A program made the translations under genes and the position numbers. DNA of 64,000 bases from assembly GCF_029167645.1 (NCBI RefSeq), contig NZ_CP119147.1, positions 6,280,501-6,344,500 on the forward strand, given 5' to 3'. The notes under the pieces were generated by a model that worked only from the letters and a program-made list of their open reading frames with translations, had not been told where the DNA came from and searched no databases. Source of the stretch: Streptomyces sp. AM 2-1-1. Lineage in GTDB: Bacteria; Actinomycetota; Actinomycetes; Streptomycetales; Streptomycetaceae. Positions 9,789-46,542 of the stretch are shown one piece after another. The stretch's first letter is position 1. The number at the start of each line of letters is the position of its first letter.

Positions 9789-10379
9789 TCAGGCCGAACC
9801 GACGAGGGGCCCCGTACGGGGGGCCATGCGCAGGGAGAGGACGGGGAGCAGGTCCGCCGCACGGTAGGGACGGTGGGCGGCGATTCCCGTCGGAGCGGGC
9901 GCGAGGGGGACGAGTATGTCGTTGGGCGCGACCGTGCCGGAGGTGGGGTCGGCGCCGGTGTCACCGTGCAGCCAGAGCGTGAGCATGTAGAGGTCGGGTA
10001 CGGAGAGGAGCCGCGGCTGGTGGAGCGTGGCCGTCGACTCGGCCTGCCGCAGGGCGCGTTCGGTCGACGCGAGGTAAGGGCCCTCGAAGAAGTGCGAGAA
10101 GGTCCAGCCGTCCGCGGTGAGGACGGTCTCGGCCGCGGCGACGATCCCCGACTCGGCGCGGATCAGGAACCGCCAGCCGGCGAGCCTGGTCGCCGGTGCG
10201 GGTCTGTCGGTGGTCGCCCGGTCGAGAACGTGGACGGGCAGGGGCAGTTCGGGGGTCAGAGGTCCCTGGACGGAGCGCAGAGCGGGCGTACGTGCTTCGC
10301 GGACCGCGCTGGGAGAACCGAGTGCCGCGAGAACGCAGCGCAGTGCGGGCGCGGGGGCCGGAGGAACATGCAGCGGCAT
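9789..10379 (-). CDS. Hypothetical protein
   Basis: 196 residues, not recognised. No signal peptide or membrane helix. The core reads as a compact alpha/beta domain (VLTADGWTFSHFFEGPYLASTERALRQAE, LLSVPDLYMLTLWLHG), and a proline/alanine-rich N-terminus (MPLHVPPAPAPALRC) precedes it. Codon usage fits a real gene, and GAGAGG lies upstream of the ATG. It is divergent from the glutamate-cysteine ligase homologue, sharing a 496-bp intergenic region with a long dyad. Confidence 0.65.
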   Translation of the reverse strand: MPLHVPPAPAPALRCVLAALGSPSAVREARTPALRSVQGPLTPELPLPVHVLDRATTDRPAPATRLAGWRFLIRAESGIVAAAETVLTADGWTFSHFFEGPYLASTERALRQAESTATLHQPRLLSVPDLYMLTLWLHGDTGADPTSGTVAPNDILVPLAPAPTGIAAHRPYRAADLLPVLSLRMAPRTGPLVGSA

Positions 10380-10460
10380 GGTGGGTCGCCTCTCGCTTCG
10401 GAGACACGGTGATGCGTGGCTGGGTGCAGACGGCGCTGTCGGCGGGCGTGACGTCAGAAG

Positions 10461-10499
10461 GAGGCCGGTCGACGACTGGACACGTCGACTATCGGCCTC
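10461..10499. promoter_or_regulatory. Long dyad in a divergent intergenic region
   Basis: GAGGCCG-GTCGAC (10461-10473) is mirrored by GTCGAC-TAT-CGGCCTC (10484-10499): 13 paired bases broken by a 3-nt bulge, with a 10-nt loop. The flanks are unusually AT-rich for this genome (AAGTTTATATGACAAGTG at about 10508-10525), suggesting promoters nearby. The rest of 10380-10875 holds no convincing gene. The binding factor is unknown. Confidence 0.4.
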
Positions 10500-10875
10500 G
10501 ACAACCGAAGTTTATATGACAAGTGTTCGCCCGGTGTTTCCACTAGCTGTCGGTCGTATGACGCGCAAGGGCGTTTCGCGTCTTTGAGACGCGCATTTTC
10601 TGGTGATTCGCGACGCACTCCCGGGCCTTCGCCTGCGAGCATTCACATTTCGCGGTCGGCTCAAAAGGATCGGTGTTTCCTTCACCGTTCGGAGGGAAGA
10701 CGACCCAGAATGAGCCGGATGCCTCATGCCAACGGAATGTGCCCGACGGACTCGCGGACCCAGCCTATCCGCTGCCGAACGCTTCCGCAGGCGTTATGGA
10801 TCACTTCTGCGGGGCATTATCGATCGAGATGCGGGCGGCCCGGTCGCGGGCCGCCACTGAGGGAAGGACTCCACG

Positions 10876-12381: not shown

Positions 12382-12470
12382 GCGGTGCGCCCCGGCGGCG
12401 GGTACCGTCCCGCGCGCCCGTGTCCCCGCCCGCGCGATCCCGGCGCTTCCGCGGCGCCCTCGGAGAAGCA

Positions 12471-12504
12471 GAACCCTGGGCGGAGCGGAACCCTGGGTGG
12501 AGCG
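12471..12504. repeat. Two-copy 17-bp direct repeat
   Basis: GAACCCTGGGCGGAGCG (12471-12487) is followed directly by GAACCCTGGGTGGAGCG (12488-12504), differing at one base. It lies in the 248-bp gap between convergent genes. No function is evident. Confidence 0.6.
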
Positions 12505-12629
12505 GTGGCGCCTTTGGTCCGCGGCCGCCACGGTCCGGTCCGGAGCGCACCGTCGCCCTACGGGGCGGTGACGCCGCGCACGCCAGCGCGGGGAAGCCCG
12601 TGGCGGACCCTCGTCGCGGGTGACGGGGG

Positions 12630-14423
12630 CTACTCGGGGGTGCTCGTCTGACTGGCGGTCATGATGGCCTGCAGGATGACCGTCTGGATCTCCGCGGGGT
12701 CGCTCACCTCGTAACCGCCCCCGCCGGTCACCTTCGCGATCTCCGCGACCTCCTCCCGGTCGGCGTCCGGCCCCACCGCGATGGCGAGGATCGGCACCGG
12801 GCGCTCCGGATCGACGAGCCCCTTGAGCTGCTGGACCAGGCCGGTGCGCGAGATGCCGTGGTCGTCCTGGTTGGAGCCGTCCGTGAGGATCACCAGCGCG
12901 TTGAACTTGCCCGGCACATAGCTCGTCACCGCCGCCCGGTACGCCGCGAGAGTGGTGTCGTAGAGGCCGGTGGCGCCGTCCGGAACGGGCTGCAACTCGT
13001 CGAAGGCCGCTGCGAGTTCCTCCCGGTGGGTGGAGCCGCTCGCGGTGCGGTCGCCGAGTCGGCCGGTGGGGGTCAGCTCGCGGTAGTCCTTGGTGCCGTC
13101 GAGCGTGGTGGCGAACTCCCAGAGACCGATCTCGTCGTCGTCGGTGAACTGGCTCAGCGCCTGGAGCAGCGACTGCTTCGTCACGTCCATCCGCGATTCG
13201 CCACTGCCCGGTACCGGGGTCGCCATCGAACCCGACGCGTCGACCACCGTGGAGAGCCGGGCGCTCTGCACCGTGATGGTCCACATGCCGAGCACCTCCT
13301 GGAGCTCGGTGGCGGTCGGGGCGGCGGCGGGCGCGTCGGTGTACGGCTGCGGGGCCTTTCCACCGGCTGCCCGGACGATCCCGGGCACCGCGGCGCCGTC
13401 CGGCGGCCGGAAGCCGTGGTCCGGCAGGGAGGTGTCCGCCCCGCCCGAACCGCTGTCCCTGAGCAGCGTCATCAGACGCAGCGCGGTCCGGCTCTGTTCG
13501 ACGGTCATCGACGTCTCGTCCACCAGGGTGTACGGGTAGTTGAGTTGCGGGGCACCGTCCTTCGGGTAGAAGAGGTCCACCTTGCCGCTCCCGGTGGCCT
13601 TTGCGTTGTGCGCGAAGGCTGCCTGTTCGGAGAGCATCAGTGCCTGGTTCCGCTCGGCGTCACCCTGCTCGGCGCCGGCATCGTCGTGCGCCAGTGTCCC
13701 AGCCGCCTGCGGGTCGCTCTCGGACATGCGCTCCGAGAGGATCTTCGCGGTCCGCGCGGCGCGGGTGTCGCCGTCCCCGCCCTGGCCCGCCGACGACGCC
13801 CCGATGGCCGCGAGCGCCAGCAGCCCGGTGGCACTGCGGGCCGGGTCGGCGGCGCCGAGCCGGACGGCACCGCCCGATTCCAGTGCGGCGGCGACCAGTT
13901 CGGCCCAGCTGAGCTGCTTCTGCGGCCACCCCATGGCCTTCGCCGCGGACGGCACGACGGCGAAGGCCACCGGTGACGTGGCCACCGAGTCGCCGGGGGT
14001 GAGCGGGATGCCGTCCCCGCTGCCCTTCGCGCGGTCCAGCCAGAGGTCCGAGTCCGGCAGCCAGACCTGGTACGGGGTCTTCCCGCCGGCCGCCACGGTG
14101 TTGGCGACCTTGTACGAGTCGGCCGCCACCACCTCGACATCCATGCACCGCCCGTCCGTACGCACCTCGTCCGCGCGCGCCCGGTCCGCCACGGCACGTA
14201 CGGCGGGGGCGATGTCGGGGGAGGCCGCGACGGTGAGCCGGACCGCGTCGCTCCCGCAGGGTTCCGAGAACGAGAGGAGGCCGGTCCGTGCGACCGCCGC
14301 CGTGCCGGCCGTCACCACGACGACGAGTGCGGTGGCGAGGACCACCGTACGGCGGCGGTTCGGCGCGGAGGCCTCCCCGGGTCTGCCCGCCGGTGAGCGG
14401 TCGGGCAAGCTGTGACGTCCCAT
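12630..14423 (-). CDS. Membrane-anchored solute-binding/von Willebrand A fusion protein
   Basis: 597 residues from ATG 14423 (AAGGAGGGG upstream). A cytoplasmic basic N-terminus leads to a signal anchor (VVLATALVVVVTAGTAAVA, about 26-44). Residues about 55-330 look like an extracellular solute-binding domain (LTVAASPDIAPAVRAVADRA, YQVWLPDSDLWLDRA, WPQKQLSWAELVAAAL). Residues about 380-590 form a VWA domain with an intact MIDAS motif (VVDASGSM, about 384-391) and ILTDGSNQDD. The protein is therefore likely outside the cell, binding a metal-dependent partner or ligand. Similar fusions occur across Streptomyces with no assigned function. It is divergent from the CPBP gene. Confidence 0.85.
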   Translation of the reverse strand: MGRHSLPDRSPAGRPGEASAPNRRRTVVLATALVVVVTAGTAAVARTGLLSFSEPCGSDAVRLTVAASPDIAPAVRAVADRARADEVRTDGRCMDVEVVAADSYKVANTVAAGGKTPYQVWLPDSDLWLDRAKGSGDGIPLTPGDSVATSPVAFAVVPSAAKAMGWPQKQLSWAELVAAALESGGAVRLGAADPARSATGLLALAAIGASSAGQGGDGDTRAARTAKILSERMSESDPQAAGTLAHDDAGAEQGDAERNQALMLSEQAAFAHNAKATGSGKVDLFYPKDGAPQLNYPYTLVDETSMTVEQSRTALRLMTLLRDSGSGGADTSLPDHGFRPPDGAAVPGIVRAAGGKAPQPYTDAPAAAPTATELQEVLGMWTITVQSARLSTVVDASGSMATPVPGSGESRMDVTKQSLLQALSQFTDDDEIGLWEFATTLDGTKDYRELTPTGRLGDRTASGSTHREELAAAFDELQPVPDGATGLYDTTLAAYRAAVTSYVPGKFNALVILTDGSNQDDHGISRTGLVQQLKGLVDPERPVPILAIAVGPDADREEVAEIAKVTGGGGYEVSDPAEIQTVILQAIMTASQTSTPE

Positions 14424-14461
14424 GTCGGTGGTGCCCCTCCTTGAGAATGAAACAAGGAAAA

Positions 14462-14497
14462 GGGGGACCCCACCATCGGCGATGGTGCTCGTCCCCC
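14462..14497 (-). promoter_or_regulatory. Leader hairpin upstream of the VWA gene, attenuator-like
   Basis: GGGGGAC (14462-14468) pairs with GTCCCCC (14491-14497) around an inner stem CACCATCG-G-CGATGGTG (14471-14487). Read on the minus strand it is followed by TTTTCCTTGTTTC and then, 39 nt from the stem base, the start codon at 14423. A GC-rich stem plus a T-rich tail looks like an intrinsic terminator inside the 5' leader of the VWA gene. Attenuation or mRNA stabilisation is inference. Confidence 0.5.
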
Positions 14498-14608
14498 GGC
14501 CTGTCGCGCATGATCTTCGTACTTGTTTTCGAGACCCTAGCGGTGCGACGGGCGGCATGAGACGCGATTGCAGAACAAAAGGCGGGTGTACTGGTGAAGG
14601 AGGGGCGC

Positions 14609-15388
14609 GTGGCTGATTCTTGTCCTCAAGAGTCGCTTTCCCGGAGGACTTTGCGGTCCGAGGCGCTGTTGGTTCTCGCACTGTCGTTGGGCGCGAGCGG
14701 GGTGTCGGCGCTCATCAGTTTTGTCGGATCACTGACGAAACCGGGCGGTTTGAAGGACCAGGCGGCGACGCTCAACGGCTCGTACGCTCCGGGCCGTCCC
14801 TGGCTGGATCTGGCATGGCAAACGTTCGGGATCGCAACGGCCCTGGTGCCCGTGGCGCTCGTGGCGCACCTGCTGACACGCGAGGGCGCGAGCCTGCGGG
14901 CGATCGGATTCGACCGGACCGAGCCCGCTTCCGATCTGCGCCGCGGAGTCGCGGTGGCCGCGTGCATCGGCAGCGCCGGACTCGCCTTCTACCTCCTCGC
15001 GCGGGCCACCGGATTCAACCTCACGGTGGTGCCGGAATCGCTGCCCGAGGTGTGGTGGAAGTTCCCGGTCCTGATCCTCTCCGCCCTCCAGAACGCCGTG
15101 CTGGAGGAGGTCGTCGTGGTGGGCTACCTGCTGCGCAGGCTGGACCAGTTGGGCTGGACGCCCCGCGCCGCGCTGCTCGCCGGCGCGGTGCTGCGCGGTT
15201 CCTACCACCTCTACCAGGGGATCGGCGGCTTCCTCGGCAACATGGTGATGGGCGTCGTCTTCGTCCTGCTCTACCGGCGCTGGGGCCGGGTCGGCCCGCT
15301 GGTGGCGGCGCACGCGCTGCTCGACATCGGAGCATTCGTCGGATACGCGCTGCTCGCCGGGAAAGTGGGCTGGCTGCCCACGCCGTGA
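14609..15388 (+). CDS. CPBP-family intramembrane protease-like protein
   Basis: 259 residues from GTG 14609, preceded by AAGGAGGG at 5-nt spacing; a GTG at 14594 overlaps that site. About seven membrane helices are visible. The CPBP (Abi/CAAX) core shows motif 1 as ALQNAVLEEVVVVGYLLRRL (EE followed by R), motif 2 as GSYHLYQG and motif 3 as AHALLDIG. In this family the EExxxR and H residues form the metalloprotease site in the membrane. Substrates may be prenylated or small hydrophobic peptides; unknown here. Single-gene unit, divergent from the VWA gene. Confidence 0.85.
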   Translation: MADSCPQESLSRRTLRSEALLVLALSLGASGVSALISFVGSLTKPGGLKDQAATLNGSYAPGRPWLDLAWQTFGIATALVPVALVAHLLTREGASLRAIGFDRTEPASDLRRGVAVAACIGSAGLAFYLLARATGFNLTVVPESLPEVWWKFPVLILSALQNAVLEEVVVVGYLLRRLDQLGWTPRAALLAGAVLRGSYHLYQGIGGFLGNMVMGVVFVLLYRRWGRVGPLVAAHALLDIGAFVGYALLAGKVGWLPTP

Positions 15389-15588
15389 GGCGTCGTACCG
15401 TCGGGGCGTGGTCGCGCGAGCAACGCGAGCGACAACAGGAGGGGCGGGGGAGAACCTGGTGAAGGGCGGGGCGACGGGTGGGGTGGACTGCCGGCCGGAC
15501 GATGTATCGGTCCGGTCGGGTCCTGCTCTCGCCGCTCCCCGCCCCCGGTCGGCCGTACCCGGGGGCCGCGGGGGCCGCTCACGTCGGC

Positions 15589-34224: not shown

Positions 34225-35070
34225 GTGACGATCGTCGCATATCAGGGGGAACCGGGCTCCAACTCGGCGACCGCCGCCCACGCGCTCTACCCCGGGTGCG
34301 GCGAGATTCCCTGCACGGGCTTCGAGCAGGCGCTGGACGCCGTGACGCTCGGTACCGCGGACGTCGCGGTGATCCCGGTCGACAACTCCGCGGCAGGGCG
34401 CGTCGCCGACGTGCACCACCTGCTGCCGGATTCGGGCCTCTTCATCATCGCGGAGCACTTCCTCGCGATCCGATTCGACCTGATGGGCGTCCCGGGCGCC
34501 TCACTCGATCAGGTGGAATGCGTGCGCAGCCACGTCCACGCCCTGGGCCAGTGCCGGAAGTTGCTGCGCGAGGGCGGCTGGCGCACCCTCGTCAGCGACG
34601 ACACCGCCGGATCGGCCCGCGAGGTGGCGGAGCTGGGCGATCCCCGCCACGCCGCGCTCGCCCCGCCCGCCGCGGCGAAGCTGTACGGGCTGGACGTGCT
34701 CCGGCCGGAGGTCGAGGACGACCCGGAGAACACCACGCGCTTCGTGGTGCTCTCCCGCGACTCGACCCCCCGGCCCGGCACCGACGGCGCCACGATGACG
34801 AGCCTGTTCTTCTGCGTGCGCAACATCCCCAGCGCGCTCTTCAAGGCCCTCGGCGGATTCGCCACCAGCGGGGTCAACCTCACCAAGATCGAGAGCTACC
34901 AGATGGGCGCGGGGCTCAGTCCCAGCCGCTTCTACGTGGAGATCGAGGGGCACCCCGACGAGCCGCGCGTCGCCCTCGCCCTCAACGAGCTGAGCTTCTT
35001 CTCCTCCGAGGTACGCGTGCTCGGCGTCTACCCGGCCGACCCGCACCGGCTGCGGGAACACACCGGCTGA
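34225..35070 (+). CDS. pheA: Prephenate dehydratase, ESYQ subtype
   Basis: 281 residues from a GTG. The periplasmic-binding-like catalytic domain contains the TTRF catalytic motif (NTTRFVVL, about 172-179). The C-terminal ACT domain has GVNLTKIESYQMG, where most actinobacterial PheA proteins have GVNLTRIESRP. The ESYQ form is familiar from alphaproteobacterial PheA. The enzyme turns prephenate into phenylpyruvate, and the ACT domain binds phenylalanine. It may be a second copy beside a housekeeping pheA elsewhere. Convergent with the FHA-monooxygenase across a hairpin. Confidence 0.88.
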   Translation: MTIVAYQGEPGSNSATAAHALYPGCGEIPCTGFEQALDAVTLGTADVAVIPVDNSAAGRVADVHHLLPDSGLFIIAEHFLAIRFDLMGVPGASLDQVECVRSHVHALGQCRKLLREGGWRTLVSDDTAGSAREVAELGDPRHAALAPPAAAKLYGLDVLRPEVEDDPENTTRFVVLSRDSTPRPGTDGATMTSLFFCVRNIPSALFKALGGFATSGVNLTKIESYQMGAGLSPSRFYVEIEGHPDEPRVALALNELSFFSSEVRVLGVYPADPHRLREHTG

Positions 35071-35113
35071 CCCGGACCGGGCGGGCGGCCGCCGGCCGGC
35101 CGCCCCGTCCGGG
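35071..35113. terminator. Hairpin between convergent pheA and FHA-monooxygenase genes
   Basis: CCCGGAC-C-GGGCGG...CCGCCC-C-GTCCGGG forms a long imperfect stem starting right at the pheA stop and ending 12 bp before the next gene's stop. Likely bidirectional. Confidence 0.65.
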
Positions 35114-35124
35114 CAGCGGGCCCG

Positions 35125-37077
35125 TCACACGACGCCCGCCGAGGGGAGACTTCTGGGGTCGGCGGGACCGGCCGTCCGCGGACCGGCGGGCCGCGGCACG
35201 TAGACCGGCGAGTCCGACTGGTAGAAGAGGTCGATGTCGGCCTCCTCCCCGCCGACGATCAGGGTGTCCCAGGCCCCGCTCTCCTGCAGGGTGCGAAGGG
35301 TCCCCGGGGCGAGCGGCGCGAGGTGCGCGCGGAGCTGCTCCATGGTCGGCATACCCGGCAGCCTCGGCGCGAGACGGTCGCGGATCGCCGCCATGCGGTC
35401 CAGCAGTTCGTCGAGGTCCGGGCGTCCCGTGCCTGACCCGGCAGCCGGCCCGGCCTCCTTCGGCCCGGCTTCCGTGCTCCGGGCGATGATGTCCTTGATG
35501 GCCCGGGTGACGCCCCGCTCGTCGGTGGTCACCATCGCGTTCCAGGCGCGGCTCTTGTGCCGGTACTGCAGCATCGACATCGCCGCCTCGTGGCGGATGA
35601 AGTCGGCGTCGCGCAGCGGCTTGCCCCGCCAGGACCGGCTGAGCGACCGGGCGAGGGAGGTGGCCGAGGCGAGACCGCTGTTGAGCCCGCGGCCGGGCCA
35701 GAAGTGGATGGCGTTGGCCGCGTCCCCCAGCAGGAAGCCGTACGTCCCCGGGGTCGTCGCCGTCGGACGGCTGAGCTGGGCGGTGAACCGGGGGCGCTGC
35801 ACCATGTCCAGCCGGAACGACGTGATCGCGGACAGATCGTCCTCGGCCACACCGAACAGGTTCAGGCCCTGCCGGATCTCCTTCCACAGGGGCGATCCGC
35901 GCAGCAGGGCGGGCAGGAAGAGGGTTCCGTGCGTCGAGCAGCGGAACTCGTTGTCCTCCTCGCGGTTCATCAGGCAGGGGCGGGCCGCGATGCACGGCTC
36001 GAACACCTGGCGGACCGGATCGATGCCGATCACACCCTTGGCCTCCTCGCGGGTGAGCCGCATGTTCAGGAAGCCCTCACCGCGCAGCGAGTTGAGCAGG
36101 AAGCGGTTCTGCGACACGGTCAGCAGCACGCTCATCGGGTCCGACAGGCGCGACTTGACCCGCAGCCCCAGCACGACGTCCTGGAGGTGCTCGCCGTCGA
36201 GGGAGTAGATGGACGGGTCGGCCGAGCCGAACCGGTCGGCGAAGTGGTCGCGGGTGCGGGAGCGTCCGCCCTCCCCGATCACCAGGACGTGTTCCTGGGC
36301 GAGCCGTCCCTGCCGCTCGACCGGGTCGAAGCGGTGCGGTATCAGCTGGATCGCGGGCCTCGTGTTGGCGAGCGCCAGGAGCCGGTCCTCGATGTAGGCG
36401 ATCCGGATGTTGCGGGGCGGCCGGCCGTCGACGGAGTCCGGCCCCACCGGCCACATCTCCGAGTACGAGGCGGCGTCGTCGAAGAGCGCCGAACGCACCT
36501 CCTCCGAGAGCGCCAGGTACTGCCGGCTCTGGACAGTGACCACCTGCTGACGCCGGACGTTGCCCTGCGACTCGTCCTTCCAGACGACGTCGGCGCCCTC
36601 GCGTACCCACCGTCCGTCGTACACGGTGATCGCCACCCGGCCGCTCAGCATCTCGTCCAGCGCCAGCGCGAAAGCGAGTCCCACCGGCCCGCCGCCGGTG
36701 ACCGTGACCCGCAGGACCCCGGGGTTCGCGGCGGCGTTCAGCCGGGGAAGATGCAGCTGGGAGAGGTCGATGACCGTCTCCATGACGTCCTGCGCCTCGT
36801 AGAGGAAGGTCTCGTCCCCGATCCGGACGCAGTCGTGCGGCCGCAGTACGTGCCGGGTGACGCGCTCGTCGTTGACGTACGTGCCGTTCCTGCTGTCCCG
36901 GTCGTACAGGACGTACTCGGCGTCCTCCCTGACGATCTCGGCGTGCAGGCGGGACGCGCTGGGGCTCACGATCACGACCCCGTTGTCGCCCTTGCGCCCG
37001 AAGGTCACAGGAGCGGTTCCCAGAACCACGCTCTGCCCGGTGAAGGGGCCCGAACGCCCCACGATGACTGATGGCAT
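35125..37077 (-). CDS. FHA-FAD monooxygenase fusion protein
   Basis: 650 residues from ATG 37077; AAGGAG lies 5 nt upstream, while the GTG at 37083 sits inside that site. Residues 1-98 form an FHA domain with GRKGDN, SASRLHAEI and RNGTYVND, the phosphothreonine-binding pattern. A linker leads to an FAD domain with VTGGGPVGLAFALALDE (about 125-142) and LLGDAANAIHFWPGRGLNSG (about 450-468), as in class A flavin monooxygenases. A charged C-terminal extension (about 485-650, with ARSTEAGPKEAG) follows. The substrate domain holds several cysteines (FEPCIAARPCLM, EFRCSTHG). This fusion is rare; FHA suggests control by a Ser/Thr kinase. Confidence 0.85.
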   Translation of the reverse strand: MPSVIVGRSGPFTGQSVVLGTAPVTFGRKGDNGVVIVSPSASRLHAEIVREDAEYVLYDRDSRNGTYVNDERVTRHVLRPHDCVRIGDETFLYEAQDVMETVIDLSQLHLPRLNAAANPGVLRVTVTGGGPVGLAFALALDEMLSGRVAITVYDGRWVREGADVVWKDESQGNVRRQQVVTVQSRQYLALSEEVRSALFDDAASYSEMWPVGPDSVDGRPPRNIRIAYIEDRLLALANTRPAIQLIPHRFDPVERQGRLAQEHVLVIGEGGRSRTRDHFADRFGSADPSIYSLDGEHLQDVVLGLRVKSRLSDPMSVLLTVSQNRFLLNSLRGEGFLNMRLTREEAKGVIGIDPVRQVFEPCIAARPCLMNREEDNEFRCSTHGTLFLPALLRGSPLWKEIRQGLNLFGVAEDDLSAITSFRLDMVQRPRFTAQLSRPTATTPGTYGFLLGDAANAIHFWPGRGLNSGLASATSLARSLSRSWRGKPLRDADFIRHEAAMSMLQYRHKSRAWNAMVTTDERGVTRAIKDIIARSTEAGPKEAGPAAGSGTGRPDLDELLDRMAAIRDRLAPRLPGMPTMEQLRAHLAPLAPGTLRTLQESGAWDTLIVGGEEADIDLFYQSDSPVYVPRPAGPRTAGPADPRSLPSAGVV

Positions 37078-37246
37078 GGCCACTCCTTGTGAACGACGCC
37101 CAGCTCCAACGGGCCGCCCCGAGCCGCCGATCCGGCCCTGGGCGTCCCGTACCCCCCGCGCTGACGGTGCCGGCCGTCCGACGCGTCGTCACACCGTGCA
37201 CGACGATCCCACCAGTCCGTCCTGTCCCGTGACGGACCATCAATCG

Positions 37247-37259
37247 CTTGTGTGACAAG
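37247..37259. promoter_or_regulatory. Short dyad upstream of the FHA-monooxygenase gene
   Basis: CTTGT-GTG-ACAAG lies about 170 bp upstream of the start, flanked by AT-richer DNA (CCATCAATCG). It may be an operator or the -35 region (TTGTCA on the minus strand). Low certainty. Confidence 0.35.
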
Positions 37260-37367
37260 ACGTGTTGACCGGCCGCCGTCGCGCTCTCGAAGTCTACGGG
37301 ACACCCCCCGCGCGGCGCTTCGAAGTGCGCGAGGTGAGCGGTGCGGGAGAGGGGCCGGCGCGGGCGT

Positions 37368-38012
37368 TCAGTCCGCCCGGTCCGCACCGTCCGGTGGAGT
37401 GTCACCGGTCTCCTGGGCGGCGGGCGCCCCCGCGCCGCCGCCCAGGGGCCACGCCTCGATGTCGCGGTAGTGGATCGGACCGCTGCTGCGGCCCACGTTG
37501 CTGCCGACCAGGTGCAGTCGTGCGGCGGGCCACCGGACGCCCGTGAAGCCGCTGAGCCCCGCCGCGATCTCCCCGGCCGAGGAGAGATCGCCCCGGCGGG
37601 CGCGGGCCAGGGTCAGATGGGGCCGGAAAGGCCGCTCCGCGAAGGCGACGCCCTGGTCCCGGACGGCGGTACGCACGTCGGCGGCGAGTGCGCGCAGCGC
37701 GTCGAGGTCGCCGTCGACACCGCTCCACAGCACCCGGTCGTCGAAGGTTCCGCTGCCCCTCAGGGCCAGCCCGGGCGGTCGGTGGGCCGCCGCGAGGCCG
37801 GCGAGGAGCGGGCGCAGCGGCGGGACCGCCCCCACCGGGAGCTCGCCGAGGAACGCCAGGGTGACGTGCCAGTCCTCGACGCGGTTCCAGCGCATCCGCG
37901 GATGCGTGAGGTAGGAAGGGCCCAGCTCCCGGGCCAGTTCCTCCTTCGCGTGGTCGGGCGGGGCGAGGGCGATGAACACGCGAACGGTCGCGGGTCGGGT
38001 CTCTTCGTTCAC
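37368..38012 (-). CDS. thpR: RNA 2',3'-cyclic phosphodiesterase (2H family)
   Basis: 214 residues from GTG 38012. The two HxT motifs of the 2H superfamily are HVTLAFLG (about 49-56) and HLTLAR (about 134-139), correctly spaced, with FIAL at the N-terminus. These proteins hydrolyse 2',3'-cyclic phosphates and were formerly called 2'-5' RNA ligases. The C-terminus is low complexity. It ends the minus-strand run from the CoA transferase genes, with 56 bp between. Confidence 0.88.
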   Translation of the reverse strand: MNEETRPATVRVFIALAPPDHAKEELARELGPSYLTHPRMRWNRVEDWHVTLAFLGELPVGAVPPLRPLLAGLAAAHRPPGLALRGSGTFDDRVLWSGVDGDLDALRALAADVRTAVRDQGVAFAERPFRPHLTLARARRGDLSSAGEIAAGLSGFTGVRWPAARLHLVGSNVGRSSGPIHYRDIEAWPLGGGAGAPAAQETGDTPPDGADRAD

Positions 38013-38068
38013 ACCCGACTTCGTACCGCACCCGGCCGCCCGCGTGGCGACCGGGTGGCGGTCCGGGA

Positions 38069-38728
38069 TCAGCAGGCCGCCGCGACGCCGTCCAGGCGCA
38101 GGGGTGCGCCGGTGCGCCCGGTGATCTCCTCGACGGACACGCCCGGGGCGGTCTCGACGAGGGCGAGGCCGTCGGCGGTGACGTCGAGGACGCCGAGGTC
38201 GGTGATGACCCGGTGCACGCAGCGTTGGCCGGTCAGCGGCAGGGTGCACGCGTCGAGGATCTTCGGTGTGCCGTCCTTGGCGGTGTGCTCCATCAGGACG
38301 ATGACCCGGCGGGCACCGTGGACGAGGTCCATGGCGCCGCCCATGCCCTTCACCATCTTGCCGGGGATCATCCAGTTCGCGAGGTCCCCGTGGGAGGAGA
38401 CCTGCATGGCACCGAGGACGGCGGTGTCCACGTGGCCGCCGCGGATCATGCCGAAGGAGAGCGCGGAGTCGAAGAAGCTCGCCCCGGGCAGGACGGTGAC
38501 CGTCTCCTTCCCGGCGTTGATCAGATCCGGGTCGACCTCCCCCTCGGTCGGGTAGGGGCCGGTACCGAGGATGCCGTTCTCGGAGTGGAGCACCACGTGC
38601 ACCCCGGAGGGGAGATGGCTGGGAATCAGGGTGGGCAGCCCGATGCCCAGATTGACGTAGGAGCCGTCGTCGAGTTCGGCGGCCGCGCGGGCGGCCATCT
38701 GGTCGCGGGTCCAGCCCAGGGTGCTCAT
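38069..38728 (-). CDS. 3-oxoacid CoA-transferase subunit B
   Basis: 219 residues from ATG 38728. The family signature with the catalytic glutamate is [14 protein letters not shown] (SENG), preceded by [10 protein letters not shown], and [14 protein letters not shown] follows. It forms a heterodimer with subunit A and moves CoA from succinyl- or acetyl-CoA to an oxoacid such as 3-oxoadipate or acetoacetate. Its start overlaps the subunit A stop by 4 bp (ATGA). Confidence 0.93.
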
Positions 38729-39480
38729 GCGCGTACGGTCCTCTTCTCGATCTGCTTGTCGGCTGCCTCGGCCGGGGTCAGCTCCACCACGCGCTGTACG
38801 TAGATGCCCGGCAGGTGCACCTGGTCGGGCTGGAGTTCGCCGGGTTCCACGAGCTCTTCGACCTCGGCGACGGTGATGCGGCCGGCCATCGCGGCGAGCG
38901 GGTTGAAGTTCGCGGCCGCGCGGCGGAACACCAGGTTCCCGTGGCGGTCCCCGCGCCAGGCGCGGACCAGGGCGAAGTCGGTGGTGATGCCGTGCTCCAG
39001 CACGTACGAGTCTCCCTGGAACTGCCGGGTCTCCTTGGGCGGGGAGGCGAGGGCCACCGTGCCGTCGGGGGCGTACCGCCACGGCAGGCCGCCCTCGGCC
39101 ACCTGGGTGCCGACCCCGGCGGGGGTGTAGAAGGCGGGAATGCCCGCGCCGCCCGCGCGCAGCCGCTCCGCGAGGGTGCCCTGCGGGGTCAGCTCGACCT
39201 CCAGTTCGCCGGAGAGGTACTGGCGGGCGAACTCCTTGTTCTCGCCGACGTAGGAGCCGGTGACGCGCTGGATACGGCCGGCGGCCAGCAGGACGCCGAG
39301 ACCGCGGCCGTCCACCCCGCAGTTGTTGGACACCACCCGGAGCCCGGTCGCGCCCTGCGCGTGCAGGGCGTCGACGAGGACGGCGGGAATACCGGAGAGG
39401 CCGAAACCGCCGACGGCGAGCGAGGCGCCGTCCGGTATGTCGGCGACCGCATCGGCCGCGTCGGCGTGCACCTTGTTCAC
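38725..39480 (-). CDS. 3-oxoacid CoA-transferase subunit A
   Basis: 251 residues from GTG 39480, preceded by AAAGGAA. The subunit A signature reads [17 protein letters not shown], then [14 protein letters not shown] and [10 protein letters not shown]. It pairs with the following subunit B gene. The GTG overlaps the SDR stop by 4 bp, so the four genes FAH-SDR-A-B are translationally coupled. The substrate is probably the oxoacid end-product of the ring-cleavage pathway. Confidence 0.93.
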
Positions 39481-40298
39481 AACGGGTTCCTTTCGGGTGG
39501 CGGCACCGGGCCGGACAGGAGGCCCGCCCCGGCTCCGGTGGTGACGGCGCCGCTCACCGGCCGCAACGCGTCGGAGACGGACTTGACACCGCCGTGCGCC
39601 GTCAGGCCGCCGTCCACGGCGATCTCGGCCCCGCTGATGAACGAGGACTCCCGCGAGAGCAGGAAGACGACCAGCGGGGTGATCTCCTCGACGGTTCCGG
39701 TGCGGCCGAGCGGCGTCTCGCGGATGTTGGCCTCCCGGAAGGCGGGAGCGGCCGAGGCGGTCATCTCCGTCTCGATGTAGCCCGGATGGATCGTGTTGAC
39801 GCGGATGCCGCTCGGCCCCAGTTCGAGGGCCGCCGTCTTCGACAGGCCGCGCAGCGCCCACTTGCTGGTCGTGTAGGCGACCGGGTAGTGGCCGGTGAGG
39901 GCGGCCGAGGAGCCGACGTTCACGATGGAGGAGCCGGCGGGCATGAGCGGCGCGAGGTGCTGGATGCCGAGCAGCGGACCGGTGACGTTCACGGCGTGGA
40001 CCCGGGCCATGTCCTCGGGGCGCACGTCGCCGATCCTGGCGCGCCACGTGATACCCGCGTTGTTCACCAGGCCGTGGACCTGGCCGTACGTCTCGCGGAG
40101 TTCGGCGGCCAGTTCGGCCCAGTCCCTCTCCTCGCTGACGTCGAGGCGGCGGCAGCCGTCCGCGGATCCGACGTCGGTGGCGACGACGTGCGCGCCCTCC
40201 CGGGCGATCGCCGCGACCTCGGCGGCTCCCTGGCCCCGGGCGGCACCCGTCACGACGACGACCTTGCCCAGGAGCCGTTGCCCGGGGACCTCGTTCAC
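39477..40298 (-). CDS. SDR-family oxidoreductase
   Basis: 273 residues. The classical SDR motifs are present: TGAARGQG for cofactor, LVNNAGI, the catalytic serine (VGSSAALTG) with YTTSK (Y-x-x-x-K). The TDVGSADG after strand 2 favours NAD(H). The C-terminal 35 residues ([28 protein letters not shown]) extend past the usual end at AVDGG. It probably oxidises or reduces an alcohol intermediate of the aromatic pathway. Four-bp overlaps join it to FAH upstream and CoA transferase downstream. Confidence 0.9.
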
Positions 40299-41266
40299 GG
40301 CCGCTCCCGGTCATGACGCCGGCCGGCCGGCAGCGGCACGGGTTCCACACCGGGCACGACGGTGCTGGTCAGGGTGCCGATGGCTTCGACCGTGAGACGC
40401 ACGGTGTCGCCCGGCCCCAGAGGTGGCGGCGTCTGCTCGCCGCGCAGCCCCCAGAGCTCGGCGAGGCAGCCGCCGTTGCCGCAGGTGCCGGAGCCGAGGA
40501 CGTCGCCGGGTACGACACGGGTGCCCCGTGAGGCGTAGGCCGTCATCTCCTCGAACGTCCAGCTCATGTGGGAGAGCAGGTCCCTGCCGATCACCTCGCC
40601 GTTGACCTCCGCCGTCAGCGCGAGGCGCAGCAGCCCTTCGGCGTCCCGGTACGGTTCCAGCTCGTCGGCGGTGACCAGGTAGGGACCGAGCGTCGTGGCG
40701 GTGTCCTTGCCCTTGCAGGGGCCGAGGCCGACCTTCATCTCCGCGGACTGCAGGTCCCGCGCGGACCAGTCGTTGAAGACGGTGTAGCCGACGATGTGGT
40801 CCCGCGCCTGCTCGGGGGTGAGGTCGCGCCCCTCCCGGCCGATGACGGCACCCACCTCCAGCTCGAAGTCGAGGGCGGCCGAGCCGGGGGGCATCGGCAC
40901 TCCGTCGTGCGGGCCGTAGACGGCGTGCGGGTTGGTGAAGTAGAAGGTCGGCGCCGCGTACCACTGCTCGGGAACGCCCGCGACACCGTCGACGGCGCGG
41001 CGTACCCCCTCGACGTGCTCTTCGAAGGTCACGAAGTCCCGTACGGAGGCGGGTTCCAGAGGAGGGAGCAGCCGCACCTGGGAGACGTGCGGACCGGGCG
41101 GCACGTCGAGCGCAGCCGCCCCGGCGGCGAGCAGCCCCGGCAGCCCTCCGGTCTCCTTGAGGAGAGCGGTGAGGGAGGTGACACCGGGGAGGGGGAAGAG
41201 CGTCCCGTCCTCCTCCACGACGGCCACCCGGTGGCGGTGCTGGTGCTCGTAGGCGGCGAAACGCAT
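40295..41266 (-). CDS. Fumarylacetoacetate hydrolase family protein (second copy)
   Basis: 323 residues. The FAH-fold core has DFVTFEEHVEG, metal ligands DFELEVGAVIG and GYTVFNDWSARDLQ, and the Gly-rich SGTCGNGGCLAELWG. The two-domain form resembles fumarylacetoacetase rather than the short isomerases. Following an SDR and a CoA transferase, it may cleave an acylpyruvate-like compound to an oxoacid and pyruvate or fumarate. First gene of the second catabolic operon. Confidence 0.9.
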   Translation of the reverse strand: MRFAAYEHQHRHRVAVVEEDGTLFPLPGVTSLTALLKETGGLPGLLAAGAAALDVPPGPHVSQVRLLPPLEPASVRDFVTFEEHVEGVRRAVDGVAGVPEQWYAAPTFYFTNPHAVYGPHDGVPMPPGSAALDFELEVGAVIGREGRDLTPEQARDHIVGYTVFNDWSARDLQSAEMKVGLGPCKGKDTATTLGPYLVTADELEPYRDAEGLLRLALTAEVNGEVIGRDLLSHMSWTFEEMTAYASRGTRVVPGDVLGSGTCGNGGCLAELWGLRGEQTPPPLGPGDTVRLTVEAIGTLTSTVVPGVEPVPLPAGRRHDRERP

Positions 41267-41402
41267 GTGCGGCTCCTGGGGGAGGCGAGGGGGTGCGGGG
41301 GAGTGGGGCGGGGACGGGCGTCGGGTCGCGGCGCCGGGCGTCCGCCGGCCGGGGCGGCGACGAGGGCCCGCACCCCGCGGGGCACGGGGTGTCCGGCGGA
41401 TC

Positions 41403-41450
41403 GAGGGGGAGGTGGCGCCCGCCGTCGAGCGCGGGCGCCACCTCCCCCTC
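41403..41450. terminator. Perfect 20-bp stem terminator
   Basis: GAGGGGGAGGTGGCGCCCGC (41403-41422) and its exact complement at 41431-41450 form a 20-bp stem with an 8-nt loop. It lies 24 bp after the dioxygenase gene stop, separating the two catabolic operons. Confidence 0.9.
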
Positions 41451-41473
41451 GCCGTGGGCCGCCGGACGACCGG

Positions 41474-42412
41474 TCAGACCGGCGGGGCGACGAAGACGCC
41501 GCGGTCGGGATCGTTGAACGACTCCTTGGCGACGATCTCGTTCATCGCGTTGGCCGTGCCCCACTGGTCGGTGACTTCGGGCTGCGAGAAGTCGTAGACG
41601 TGGGGGTGCCAGGTGTCCTCGTCGAGGTTCTCCAGCTCGGTGGTGTACTCGACGGTGTTGCCGTGGGGGTCGAGGAAGTACGTGAAGGTGTTGTCGCCCG
41701 CCATGTGCCGGCCGGGACCCCAGACCTTCTTGAAACCGGCCCGCATGACGCGGCCGGATCCGCGCATGTACTCGTCGATGCCGCGCATCTCGAAGGAGAC
41801 GTGGTGCAGGGCGGTGTGCGGGCCCTGGGCGATGGCCATGGAGTGGTGCTGGTTGCTGATCCGCATGAAGTGCATGACCTCGCCCATGTGCGGGGAGCTG
41901 AGGGTGTCGGAGAGCGCGAAGCCGAGGTGGCGCTCGTACCACTCGCGGGTGCGGTTGAGGTCGGGGGAGTTGAGGACGACGTGGGAGAGCTTGACCGGGA
42001 TGGCCTCCTTCTCCTCGATCTTCCGGTGCCGGCGCACCTCGACGTCGGCGGAGACCTCGAGGGTGCGGCCGTCCACGTCGAAGAAGCGGAAGCCGTAGCC
42101 GCCACCGGGCGTGTCCAGGTTCCCGGGCCGGGACACCAGCTGCACGCCGCCCGCGAGCAGGCGCTCGGCGAGCGTGTCGACGGCGGCCGCGTCGGCCGCG
42201 CCGTAGGAGACGAGGTCGAGGCGCTTCTCCTCGGCCTTGCGCAGCCGCACGACGTAGTTCTCGGGGGAGCCCTCGGCCGCCAGGAAGGAGATCCCCGAGT
42301 CCTCGGAGACCTTGGTGAGGCCCCAGACCCCGCCGTAGAAGTCGAGCTGCTTCTCGTAGTCCGGCACCGCCAGGTCCACGTGGCGCAGGTGGGTGAGCAG
42401 ACGTCCGTTCAT
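41474..42412 (-). CDS. Type I extradiol ring-cleavage dioxygenase (VOC family)
   Basis: 312 residues, two VOC modules. The Fe(II) ligands are in the second module: H in SHVVLNSPD, H in HHVSFEM and E in NTVEY, the 2-His-1-Glu facial triad of catechol 2,3-dioxygenases. GAGGAGG precedes the ATG. It would open an aromatic diol next to the two hydroxyls (meta-cleavage). Last gene of the first catabolic operon, 21 bp after the amidohydrolase. Confidence 0.93.
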   Translation of the reverse strand: MNGRLLTHLRHVDLAVPDYEKQLDFYGGVWGLTKVSEDSGISFLAAEGSPENYVVRLRKAEEKRLDLVSYGAADAAAVDTLAERLLAGGVQLVSRPGNLDTPGGGYGFRFFDVDGRTLEVSADVEVRRHRKIEEKEAIPVKLSHVVLNSPDLNRTREWYERHLGFALSDTLSSPHMGEVMHFMRISNQHHSMAIAQGPHTALHHVSFEMRGIDEYMRGSGRVMRAGFKKVWGPGRHMAGDNTFTYFLDPHGNTVEYTTELENLDEDTWHPHVYDFSQPEVTDQWGTANAMNEIVAKESFNDPDRGVFVAPPV

Positions 42413-42433
42413 GGTGCTTCCTCCTCGTTGAGG

Positions 42434-43432
42434 TCAGGCATGGCGCAGCAGGGCAGCGGCGTTTCCCCCGCGTACGGAGTCGAAGTCGGCCTCGGAGAGA
42501 CCGGCGGCGCGCAGGGCGGCGACCGGATCGTCGGTGCCCATGTCGAAGGGGAAGTCCGAGCCGAGCAGCACCCGGTCGGCGCCGGCGACGCGAATCAGCT
42601 CCCGCAGGACGTCCGGGTCGTGTACGAGCGAGTCGAAGTGGATCCGCTTCAGGTAGCTGCTCGGCGGACGGGCGCATCCGGCACCCGCGTCGGAGCGCGC
42701 CGACCAGGCGTGGTCGGAGCGGCCGATGTGGGTGGGCAGGTAGCCGCCGCCGTGGGCGGCGACCAGCTTCAGCGCGGGATGACGGTCGAGCACCCCGGAG
42801 AAGATGAGGTGCGAGAGCGCCACGGCGTTCTCGGTGGGCTGACCGACCGTGTTGGACAGGTACCACTGGTCCAGGCGCTCGTCGAGCGTGCACCCGAAGG
42901 GGTGCAGGAAGAGGATCGCACCCGTCTCCTCCGCCCGGGACCAGAACGGCTCGTACGCCGGGTCGGACAGCTCCCGCCCCGGGGCGTGGCTGGACAGCTC
43001 CACCCCCGCCAATCCCTGCTCCAGCGCGTGGTCGAGAGCGGGCACCATGAGGCCCGGGTGCTGGAGGGGTACGAGGCCGAGGCCCCGCAGCCGGTCCGGA
43101 GCAGCCGCGCAGTGCGCGGCGGTGGCCTCACCGGCCAGCCGGTACACCTTCTCCGCCGTCTCCTCGTCGGCCCAGTAGTGGTACTGCGACGGGGAAGGGC
43201 TGACGAGTTGGACGTCCACCCCCTGCGCGTCCATCGCCGCGAGGCGTACGGAGACGTCGGTCAGCTTCGGTATGCGGGCACCGACCATGGGGCCGCTGAC
43301 GGCGAGCGCCGCGGGACCGTTGCGGCGGGCGTCCAGCTCCCTGGCCTCCGCGAGTCCCGGGAGCCCCGCCACCAGAGCCTCGACCTCGGGCAGCAGGACG
43401 TGGGCGTGCACGTCGACGGTCGGGGAGGTCAC
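42434..43432 (-). CDS. Amidohydrolase (ACMSD-like decarboxylase/hydrolase)
   Basis: 332 residues from a GTG whose last 4 bp overlap the preceding stop (GTGA). Metal ligands are DVHAH near the start, LHPFGC, AAHGGGYLPTHIG and LLGSDFPFD, the pattern of the aminocarboxymuconate-semialdehyde decarboxylase family, which also includes gamma-resorcylate decarboxylase and 4-oxalomesaconate hydratase. Decarboxylation of a ring-cleavage product or aromatic acid is the likely role. The exact reaction cannot be assigned. Confidence 0.88.
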   Translation of the reverse strand: MTSPTVDVHAHVLLPEVEALVAGLPGLAEARELDARRNGPAALAVSGPMVGARIPKLTDVSVRLAAMDAQGVDVQLVSPSPSQYHYWADEETAEKVYRLAGEATAAHCAAAPDRLRGLGLVPLQHPGLMVPALDHALEQGLAGVELSSHAPGRELSDPAYEPFWSRAEETGAILFLHPFGCTLDERLDQWYLSNTVGQPTENAVALSHLIFSGVLDRHPALKLVAAHGGGYLPTHIGRSDHAWSARSDAGAGCARPPSSYLKRIHFDSLVHDPDVLRELIRVAGADRVLLGSDFPFDMGTDDPVAALRAAGLSEADFDSVRGGNAAALLRHA

Positions 43433-44559
43433 GGGAGCTCCCGGAGCATCGTCATGGTGCGGCCCATCAGGCCGGGGACGTCGGCGTCCCGCACCCCGTC
43501 GAGCTGCCACTGCCCGATCTGCACGGACGCCTCCACGACGGGCCGGACCCGGGCGATGCGGCGCTCGTAGTACGCCTGGAACAGCGCGTCGTCCCAGCTC
43601 TCGGCCCCGGTCAGCATCCGCGCGAGCACGAGGGCGTCCTCCAGGGACAGGGCGGCGCCCTGCGCGAGGGTGGGCGGGCAGCAGTGGGCGGCGTCGCCGA
43701 CGAGGACGACGCGTCCGCGGTGCCAGGAGCCCTCGACCAGCAGCCGGTCGAACCAGGTGTAGTTCACCTGTCCCGAGTCGGTGATCGTCCGGGTGATCTC
43801 CGGCCAGAAGCCCCCGTAGGCGGAGGTCAGGCGGCGCATCTCGTCGGCGTACGAGTCCACCGGGATGGAGGCCCGGTCGCGGTTGGCCTCGACCACGTAC
43901 GCGTAGAGGGTCGTCTCGCTGGTGGGGCAGTAGCCGGCGATGTGGGCCGGCCCCCCGTAGGCGAGGTCGGTGCGGGTCAGGCCGGCCGGACGCGGGGCGG
44001 CGACGCGCCAGATGGCCATGCCGGTCGGTTCGGGCTTCGCGGTGATACCGATGGCGGCGCGGGTGGTGGAGCCGAGTCCGTCGGCGGCGATCACCAGGTC
44101 GTAGCGGCCCTCGGTGCCGTCGGAGAAGCGCACGGTGACGCCGTCGTCGTCCTGAACCAGGCCGGTGGTCCGGACGCCCAGGCGCACCCGGGCCCCGCTC
44201 CCGCGGACGGCGTCGATGAGGATCCGCTGCAACTGGGGGCGCTGCATGCCGACGGTGGCCGGCAGGTCGTCGCCTCCGCTGCGGATGTCGTCCTGCGCGT
44301 GCAGGACGGTACCGTCGGGGGCGGTGATGCCGACCGAGCCGAAGCCGTAACCGGACGCCTCCACCCGCTCCCAGACGCCGAGTTCGCGCAGCACGCGCAG
44401 GGCGTTGCCCTGGAGGGTGATGCCGGAACCCGCCGTCGCGTTCCAGTCCTCCTTCGCCTCGACCAGGTCGACGCCGAAGCCGGCCCGGCGCAGCAGGACC
44501 GTGACGGCGTTGCCTGCCGCCCCGCCGCCGACCACCAGGACCGTACGGGATGTGCTCAT
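43429..44559 (-). CDS. FAD-dependent monooxygenase (aromatic hydroxylase)
   Basis: 376 residues; AAGGGAG precedes the ATG. FAD motif 1 is VLVVGGGAAGNAVTVLLRRAG (G11, G13, G16) and motif 2 is VVLVGDAAHCCPPTLAQGAALSLEDA. Length and motifs fit the PHBH/6-hydroxynicotinate 3-monooxygenase type. It probably adds the hydroxyl that makes a substrate for the extradiol dioxygenase two genes on. Confidence 0.92.
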   Translation of the reverse strand: MSTSRTVLVVGGGAAGNAVTVLLRRAGFGVDLVEAKEDWNATAGSGITLQGNALRVLRELGVWERVEASGYGFGSVGITAPDGTVLHAQDDIRSGGDDLPATVGMQRPQLQRILIDAVRGSGARVRLGVRTTGLVQDDDGVTVRFSDGTEGRYDLVIAADGLGSTTRAAIGITAKPEPTGMAIWRVAAPRPAGLTRTDLAYGGPAHIAGYCPTSETTLYAYVVEANRDRASIPVDSYADEMRRLTSAYGGFWPEITRTITDSGQVNYTWFDRLLVEGSWHRGRVVLVGDAAHCCPPTLAQGAALSLEDALVLARMLTGAESWDDALFQAYYERRIARVRPVVEASVQIGQWQLDGVRDADVPGLMGRTMTMLRELP

Positions 44560-44581
44560 GGGAACTCCCTTGTTCCTCTTG

Positions 44582-45544
44582 TTACTTGACGGCGATCGGA
44601 TTGACCGGGCTGCCGACCGCACCGGTGATGCGCAAGGGCGCGGCGGTGAGGAGGAAGTCGTACGTCCCGTCGTCCGCGCAGTCCTCGGCGAGTGCGTCGA
44701 GGTCCCACATCTCGCCGATCAGCAATCCGATGTTGGGGATGGCGACCTGGTGCAGCGGCTGGAAGGCGTGGTCGAACTCGTTGGGCCGCACCTCGAAGCC
44801 CCAGGTGTCGGTGGCGATCGCGGCGATCTCCGTGCCGTGCAGCCATCCGGCCGCGGTGAACGACAGGCCGGGGGCCGGGCCGCCGGCGTACTCGCCCCAG
44901 CCGTCGCGGCGGACCCGGGCGAGCTGCCCGGTCCGCACCAGCACGATGTCGCCGCGCCCCACGGCGACCCCCTGGGCCCCGGCCGTGGCCGCCAGGTGCT
45001 CCCCGGTGATGGCGAAGCCGTCCGGCAACTCCCCGTCCTCGCCGATCGCACGGCCGACGTCCAGCAGCACCCCGCGGCCGGCGACGTGCGGTGCCATGTG
45101 CTCGATGCCGGTGACGAGGTCGCCCTCGGACGTGACGACCTGCTCCGCCGGACGTCCGTTCCAGGCCTTGCCGTGGTCGAAGATGTGCCCGAGCCCGTCC
45201 CACTGGGTGGAACACTGCAGCGGCATCGCGATCACGTCGTCGGCGCCACCGAGGCCGTGCGGGAACCCCTGCCCGTTGACGACGGCGTCGGTGCCGGTGT
45301 CGAGCATGGTGTGCACGGGGTTGGTGCGCCGGCGCCAGCCCTTCTGCGGGCCGTTCATGTCGAAGCTCTGGGAGAGGGAGAAACTGGCCCCCCGCCGCAC
45401 GAGCGCGGCCGCCTCGCGGCGCTTGGCCCCGTCGAGGAAGTTGAGGGTGCCCAGCACGTCGTCCGCGCCCCAGCGTCCCCAGTTGGAGTACGCCTTGGCC
45501 GCCTCGGCGATCGCCCCCTCGGGGTCGGTGCGGTCGAGGGTCAT
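44582..45544 (-). CDS. Cyclase-family metal hydrolase
   Basis: 320 residues from ATG 45544, overlapping the FAH stop by 4 bp. The cyclase/kynurenine-formamidase fold (PF04199-like) is seen as STQWDGLGHIF, a WDGLGH variant of the usual HxGTHxD metal site, with GRGVLLDVG and GDIVLVRTG. Such enzymes hydrolyse amide or ester bonds. Substrate unknown; the kynurenine route is not otherwise represented. Confidence 0.85.
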   Translation of the reverse strand: MTLDRTDPEGAIAEAAKAYSNWGRWGADDVLGTLNFLDGAKRREAAALVRRGASFSLSQSFDMNGPQKGWRRRTNPVHTMLDTGTDAVVNGQGFPHGLGGADDVIAMPLQCSTQWDGLGHIFDHGKAWNGRPAEQVVTSEGDLVTGIEHMAPHVAGRGVLLDVGRAIGEDGELPDGFAITGEHLAATAGAQGVAVGRGDIVLVRTGQLARVRRDGWGEYAGGPAPGLSFTAAGWLHGTEIAAIATDTWGFEVRPNEFDHAFQPLHQVAIPNIGLLIGEMWDLDALAEDCADDGTYDFLLTAAPLRITGAVGSPVNPIAVK

Positions 45545-46542
45545 GACTCCTCCGCGACGACACACCGGGTGCGCTGGACACCGAGCCCGGAGACCGAACC
45601 CTCCATCACGTCCCCGTCGCGCAGCAGCCGGCCCCAGTGCATGCCGTTCCCGGCCGGGCTGCCGGTCAGGACGAGGTCGCCGGGGAGCAGGCGCGCGGTC
45701 TGCGACACGTAACTCACCACGCGCGCGACGCTGAAGATCATGTCCTCGGTGGACTCGTCCTGCATCGTCTCGCCGTTCAGCTTCAGCGTCACCCGCAGGT
45801 CGTCCGGGTCGGTGACCGACCCGGCGGGCACGATCCAGGGCCCGAGCGGGGTGAAGCCGGGGGCGTTCTTGCTGCGCAGCCAGTCCGTGCCGATCTGCGG
45901 CATGTCACGGCGGAAGACGGTCCCGCGATCGGTCAGGTCGTTGGCGATCGTGTACCCGGCGACGTGGTCCAGCGCCTCTTCGACCGGCACCTGGTAGGCG
46001 GGCCGGCCGATCACGACCGCCAGCTCCAGCTCCCAGTCGGGCTTCCCGGCCCACGCGGGGAGCACGACGTCGTCGTACGGCCCGGTGATCGCGCTCGGCA
46101 GGCCGATGAACACGTACGGCAGGTCCTCCGTCGCGCGCCGGTCCATGATCTCCGCCGCCTCCGCGCGCCGCTCCTCCTCGGAGCGGTCGTCGTCCGGGGC
46201 CCGGTGCGCGACATGCAGGTCGATGACGTGCTGCCGGTAGTTCGCGCCGGACTGGAAGACCTGACGCGGCTCGACGGGGGCGTGCACCCGGAAGTCCGCC
46301 AGGGGCTTTCGCTCCGGTCCGTCGCTCCCGGCCAGCGCCTCCAGCCGGGGGAGCGCGGACTCCCAGCTCTCCAGAAGGCTCCGGACGTCCAGCCGGTCGT
46401 CGCCGAGTACGGCCCGGAGGTCGAGCACCCGGGCGTCGGGCGTGACGAGGGCCGGGAACGCCGGTCCGTCCGGGGCCGAGAGCGTGGCGAGGGCGAACGG
46501 TCCGGCGAAGAGCGCGGACGCGGGTTCAGGTTTCACGGGCAT
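45541..46542 (-). CDS. Fumarylacetoacetate hydrolase family protein (first copy)
   Basis: 333 residues from ATG 46542; a GTG at 46536 has better spacing to GGAGG and may be the true start. The FAH core has QVFQSGANYRQHVIDL, metal ligands in WELELAVVIG and the GYTIANDLTDRGT segment, and LTGSPAGNGM. It is first in the catabolic operon. It may hydrate or hydrolyse a dienoate produced by ring cleavage. The two FAH copies in this island are clearly different in sequence. Confidence 0.9.
   Translation of the reverse strand: MPVKPEPASALFAGPFALATLSAPDGPAFPALVTPDARVLDLRAVLGDDRLDVRSLLESWESALPRLEALAGSDGPERKPLADFRVHAPVEPRQVFQSGANYRQHVIDLHVAHRAPDDDRSEEERRAEAAEIMDRRATEDLPYVFIGLPSAITGPYDDVVLPAWAGKPDWELELAVVIGRPAYQVPVEEALDHVAGYTIANDLTDRGTVFRRDMPQIGTDWLRSKNAPGFTPLGPWIVPAGSVTDPDDLRVTLKLNGETMQDESTEDMIFSVARVVSYVSQTARLLPGDLVLTGSPAGNGMHWGRLLRDGDVMEGSVSGLGVQRTRCVVAEES

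Follow-up and report, generated by a model that had tools for sequence, protein, structure and literature searches.

FHA-bearing effectors that work with a Ser/Thr kinase are known from mycobacteria, where the genes for Rv1747 and PknF are adjacent and where EmbR and PknH represent another such pair; to our knowledge, bacterial Ser/Thr kinases have many substrates and few dedicated outputs. By the titles of works cited there, the FHA domains of Rv1747 mediate phosphorylation by PknF (cited in PMC6213207) and FHA proteins of Streptomyces coelicolor are linked to PknB (cited in PMC7501462); PMC12321487 describes a regulatory ETTS motif adjoining the FHA domain of GarA, a protein of actinobacterial metabolic control. 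A published fusion of an FHA domain with a flavin monooxygenase was not found in searches of the open literature for such fusions, for FHA-kinase pairs and for GarA/OdhI, and the passages of PMC6835275 and PMC7501462 that came up concern other proteins. Such a fusion is encoded in the window analysed here, a stretch of 64,000 nucleotides from Streptomyces sp. AM 2-1-1, and its features are as follows.

35125..37077, minus strand (37077-35125): FHA-flavin monooxygenase fusion gene, 650 aa, translated without a stop
37083..37088, minus strand: ribosome site AAGGAG, five bases 5' of the ATG (sequence)
36793..37065, minus strand: FHA domain, residues 5-95 (Pfam, alignment, GarA-like fold)
36763..36786, minus strand: linker motif around T101, residues 98-105, VMETVIDL in the window (alignment)
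35488..36717, minus strand: class A flavin monooxygenase domain, residues 121-530 (motifs and fold)
35218..35412, minus strand: conserved C-terminal segment, residues 556-620, with helices and the motif SGAWDTL..GGEE.DIDLFY (alignment, conservation)

The fusion gene and its family

The earlier note, made from the sequence alone, had described an FHA domain joined in one frame to a flavin monooxygenase with both FAD motifs, behind a strong ribosome site, and had named FHA-less homologues, a hidden stop or a sequencing join as signs of an artefact. Its description was borne out: a single open frame comprises the FHA domain, identified by Pfam, and a class A flavin monooxygenase fold, identified by fold comparison and by intact GxGxxG and DG motifs (plus GD), and AAGGAG precedes the ATG. 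A scan of positions 34900-37500 for promoters and terminators returned nothing among the promoter types that it covers. The search for the same fusion in other actinobacteria yielded 68 relative loci in several genera, and the FHA domain is present in 206 of 210 aligned rows of the family (the window, 70 loci and 139 listed proteins, some proteins being entered twice); additionally, FHA and flavin domains share one frame in all 30 loci fetched from an order-level scan, the window's own included. The four rows lacking the FHA domain (L057, L080, P0122 and P0126) are what speaks for an assembly artefact or chance frame. P0126 is a protein from the same species as L057, a locus of two called genes in which no FHA was found upstream, while in L080 only residues 83 onward were recovered, although a kinase adjoins. 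The stop-free translation, the FHA-bearing rows and the in-frame loci rule out a hidden stop or a sequencing join, and with independent genomes refuting it the artefact explanation can be practically dismissed. The fusion is therefore confirmed as real, and as a genuine family.

Its spread is patchy. The genome scan recovered the fusion in Streptomyces, Streptacidiphilus, Streptantibioticus, Kitasatospora, Microbispora, Microtetraspora, Sphaerimonospora, Actinoplanes, Virgisporangium and Actinoallomurus; among near relatives, however, only 3 of 41 genomes carry it, across the phylum 4 of 396 (E<=1e-10, up to four candidates scored per genome, all frames of at least 645 aa), and across the order 44 of 293 at full length (profile, E<=1e-4, up to six candidates scored per genome), the window's own genome being counted each time. 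One further genome of the order, G026, gave a weak partial match, and the 30 fetched loci mentioned above were taken from the 44. When the window protein was used as a query, 1076 proteins were returned at E<=1e-3, and FHA is present in every one of the best 120. An FHA-less ancestor or donor of the flavin domain was not detected in the 396 phylum and 293 order genomes, where few candidates were scored per genome and weaker ones may have been missed, and this absence of an intermediate suggests that the flavin domain seems specific to the FHA-fused architecture; a search with the flavin part does include the FHA-less P0122 and P0126 among the best 120 of 1109 proteins, and weaker FHA-less relatives may exist.

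A transmembrane kinase gene beside the fusion

The genes round the 68 relative loci and the window were called by script and then clustered. One gene cluster recurs at the fusion, that of a Ser/Thr kinase, for which all five members scanned gave Pkinase matches of E 4.5e-41 or better. Altogether, a Ser/Thr kinase gene is the immediate neighbour in 44 of the 68 loci. This count includes L043, L046 and L050, where only the C-terminal part of the kinase is visible near a contig end. The kinase lies immediately upstream in 40 loci, codirectional in 26 and divergent in 14, with orientation differing between lineages. In 39 of these 40 (L029 ends at the contig) it possesses a hydrophobic stretch of the membrane-span type and a C-terminal ectodomain of approximately 110 residues, in which two cysteines are invariant among 16 aligned sequences. 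Pfam did not recognise the ectodomain in any of the five kinases scanned, and a sequence search of the PDB gave nothing better than E 0.5; the Thr motifs in the kinase linkers are variable. The next gene outward of the 40 upstream pairs, on either side, falls into 34 families among 38, and since the flanking genes vary to this extent the kinase-fusion pair travels together. Distances of the FHA and FAD domains correlate with kinase-domain distances (r 0.85 and 0.88, respectively, in 38 loci), a result that linkage alone would also give. In Microbispora, a gene for an ECF-type sigma factor, identified by cluster membership with a Pfam check in L063 only, directly follows the fusion on the same strand in seven loci (L060, L061, L063, L065, L066, L070 and L084), and is possibly another signalling partner.

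After omission of L003, L057 and L080, the tree of the fusion comprises 68 rows and divides into clade I, with 44 rows, and clade II, with 24. The transmembrane kinase adjoins the fusion in 42 of the 44 clade I rows, the exceptions being the window and L024. Clade II proteins are approximately 61-68% identical to the window protein, and 22 of the 23 scanned clade II loci (L002 left out) carry no kinase in their fetched flanks, which vary in length; only L067 (Sphaerimonospora, 10001-15438) does so, with three Ser/Thr kinases around the fusion, none of which has the clade I ectodomain, and this locus is counted within the 44 of 68. The 24 loci without an adjacent kinase are 22 clade II loci, L024 and L057. 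Divergent kinases form a single group in the kinase tree, and because the window and L024 group next to the divergent-kinase rows in the fusion tree, loss of the kinase is the simplest reading. Furthermore, the Actinoallomurus locus L083 is placed among Streptomyces in both trees, so that it looks as if the pair moved jointly, provided that the L083 contig is no contaminant.

Within the window genome, 21 kinase matches were obtained, the best being 53% identical over the kinase part, while a search of the genome gave no match to the ectodomain of the partner kinase; near the window gene (35001-41500) no convincing kinase remnant was detected, the best having E 0.015 over 24 residues. Therefore, another of the approximately 20 Ser/Thr kinases of this genome would have to serve. 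Here, as in nearly all scanned clade II loci, either another kinase must act or the FHA domain works without phosphate. The earlier suggestion that the oxidase is recruited or switched by a Ser/Thr kinase thus stands in part, agreeing with the kinase neighbour in most loci but not with the window genome, which lacks a cognate kinase, nor with clade II. A relaxed FHA domain in the window genome was considered and rejected: its FHA/FAD divergence ratio of 1.53 lies close to the median, which is 1.50 over 44 rows (range 1.22-1.71), and as it does not diverge faster than in kinase-paired genomes it still appears to be in use.

Co-occurrence over the 293 order genomes was assessed with at most 15 ectodomain and six fusion candidates scored per genome. 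Ectodomain matches occur in 159 genomes, two of them weak, and most of these genomes are without the fusion; 22 genomes have two ectodomain copies and 21 of these carry the fusion. In at least 22 of the 44 genomes with the fusion, an ectodomain match lies no more than 4 kb away from it (two tables compared by eye). Kinases with the same ectodomain and different neighbours were observed at L148, L153-L155, L157, L159 and L160, and are present in many Streptomyces genomes without the fusion.

The surroundings of the window gene bear on a different explanation, namely that the protein is an ordinary pathway hydroxylase to which the FHA domain is a minor add-on. The relevant genes, with a second FHA gene elsewhere in the window, are:

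37368-37979, minus strand: LigT-like gene, nearest upstream of the fusion
38069-46536, minus strand: catabolic run of nine genes (CoA-transferase pair, SDR, two FAA hydrolases, glyoxalase-family, amidohydrolase, FAD monooxygenase, cyclase)
46670, plus strand: LysR gene beside the catabolic run
915-1679, plus strand: second FHA gene, FHA match at 1383-1661; we take its neighbours to resemble the garA-ftsR region

The nine-gene run and the LysR gene look like an aromatic degradation operon, and the CoA-transferase, FAA hydrolase, glyoxalase-family and amidohydrolase genes lie upstream on the same strand as the fusion, as a pathway hydroxylase would have it. However, an FAD monooxygenase is already part of this operon (43429-44559), its genes fell outside the neighbour clusters of the 68 relatives, and the closest upstream gene is the LigT-like one, making this explanation very improbable.

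The FHA domain, its linker threonine and the flavin domain

FHA domains bind phosphothreonine through a pocket composed of Gly-Arg, Ser-x-x-His and Asn-Gly, and favour ligands of the pTxxD type. The FHA domain of the window protein (PF00498, E 6.4e-16, 59 bits against a gathering score of 20.7) retains this set as G27 R28, S42 H45 and N64 G65, which together with R43 are identical in all 206 FHA-bearing rows. Among solved chains its sequence is closest to GarA/OdhI, and the fold search placed it closest to GarA chains, one such entry being solved with PknB. In the adjoining linker T101 is likewise invariant in 206 of 206 rows, most of which are close relatives; its codon is not fixed (ACG 57, ACC 11 in 68 loci), Glu precedes it in 200 of 206 rows, and the +3 position is Asp in 184 (N 12, A 7, G 2, E 1). 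Owing to this invariance, to the prevalence of Asp at +3 that matches the pTxxD preference, and to the ETTS motif next to the FHA domain of GarA, T101 would be the best candidate for a phosphothreonine site of the fusion protein. Its role could instead be structural, and it falls in a stretch of low model confidence (97-117).

The similarity to GarA raises the alternative that the FHA domain, while unphosphorylated, binds a partner enzyme independently of phosphate and so carries the monooxygenase to its substrate or electron source, and that phosphorylation of T101 by a kinase folds the FHA domain onto the linker and frees the partner. Besides the resemblance in sequence and fold and the invariance of T101, this would be in keeping with the control of GarA by its ETTS threonine motif, as described in PMC12321487. 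Against this, no partner enzyme gene recurs among the neighbour clusters of the 68 loci, and the T101 motif is C-terminal to the FHA domain while that of GarA is N-terminal; such a scaffold thus appears unlikely.

Class A monooxygenases are defined by GxGxxG, DG and GD motifs. In the window protein the first two have one match each (GGGPVG at 128 and EGGRSRTR at 269), while GD, one of three such pairs, is found at 451, in the expected place. The predicted model is of moderate confidence, with a mean pLDDT of 71.5 and low values at 97-117, 350-386 and 456-463, and the fold search assigned it to the class A flavoprotein monooxygenase fold, with many monooxygenase types tied as nearest. Pfam PF01494 remained below its cutoff (18.9 bits against 22, residues 448-486 only), and is annotated as a precomputed domain in some relatives. 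The domain would presumably act on a small-molecule substrate. Flavin halogenases are characterised by a WxWxIP motif, and the window protein has no WxWxI match. A FWP motif, which we take to be MICAL-like, was not supported by the profile search, from which MICAL was absent at E<=1; human MICAL3 stood at rank 28 in Foldseek (E 3e-8, rmsd 29).

It was also considered that information might flow in the opposite direction, the flavin domain being a redox or metabolite sensor of little turnover, with the FHA domain conveying its state to the kinase. The domain is far in sequence from solved monooxygenases, the best profile match being TetX7 (E 5e-5, two short motif regions), and no biosynthetic partner gene recurs beside the fusion loci, as might be expected of a sensor. 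However, the GxGxxG, DG and GD motifs are intact and conservation in the alignment is highest in the flavin domain (0.88 against 0.81 for FHA), as in a working active site, and we regard a sensor as quite improbable.

Signalling model and comparison with known systems

The reading that we favour, and consider probable, is that of a signalling output enzyme. A receptor-type Ser/Thr kinase, composed of a kinase domain, a Thr-rich linker, one membrane span and an ectodomain of about 110 residues, would sense an outside signal and autophosphorylate, perhaps also phosphorylating T101. The FHA domain would then dock on the phosphorylated kinase, or on T101 of its own linker (pTxxD) once phosphorylated, and this docking would position or switch the attached FAD monooxygenase. 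The direct basis of this model is the fusion itself, the intact phosphothreonine-pocket residues, the flavin fold and motifs, the kinase linkage in clade I and the invariance of T101; the link between fusion and kinase rests on genome organisation, and from these we infer docking, phosphorylation and the change in activity. The direct adjacency of the two genes in many related soil bacteria suggests a compact device, made of kinase and fusion, by which a signal from outside is converted into an oxidation. More tentatively, it is possible that this is a mobile two-gene module, the first of its kind: a flavin monooxygenase would be gated directly by a bacterial transmembrane Ser/Thr kinase, by way of the FHA domain fused to the enzyme and of the invariant threonine in the linker (mostly pTxxD), leading from extracellular signal to chemical output without transcription. 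A kinase with one phosphothreonine-reading enzyme as its steady genomic companion would be a clean signal-to-chemistry pair, with possible links to redox signalling or to specialised metabolism in antibiotic producers. Since the pair is found in many different genomic settings, and since some lineages lack the kinase, nature itself offers comparisons between its presence and its absence.

FHA effectors that work with kinases are known already, and what is new, as far as the searches of the open literature extend, is a flavin monooxygenase as the effector. The likeness to Rv1747-PknF and EmbR-PknH lies in an FHA-bearing effector that works, or in the present case would work, with a Ser/Thr kinase; those effectors are an ABC transporter and a transcription factor, respectively, and the kinase ectodomain, unlike theirs, is without a Pfam match. 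With the class A flavoprotein monooxygenases KMO, UbiH, StyA, PHBH, TetX and RIFMO the protein shares the fold and the GxGxxG, DG and GD motifs. GarA/OdhI provide the closest FHA domain among solved chains, in sequence and in fold, along with a Thr motif beside it; GarA, however, is a stand-alone FHA protein and binds enzymes in trans, whereas here domain and enzyme form one chain, with the Thr motif on the C-terminal side of the FHA domain.
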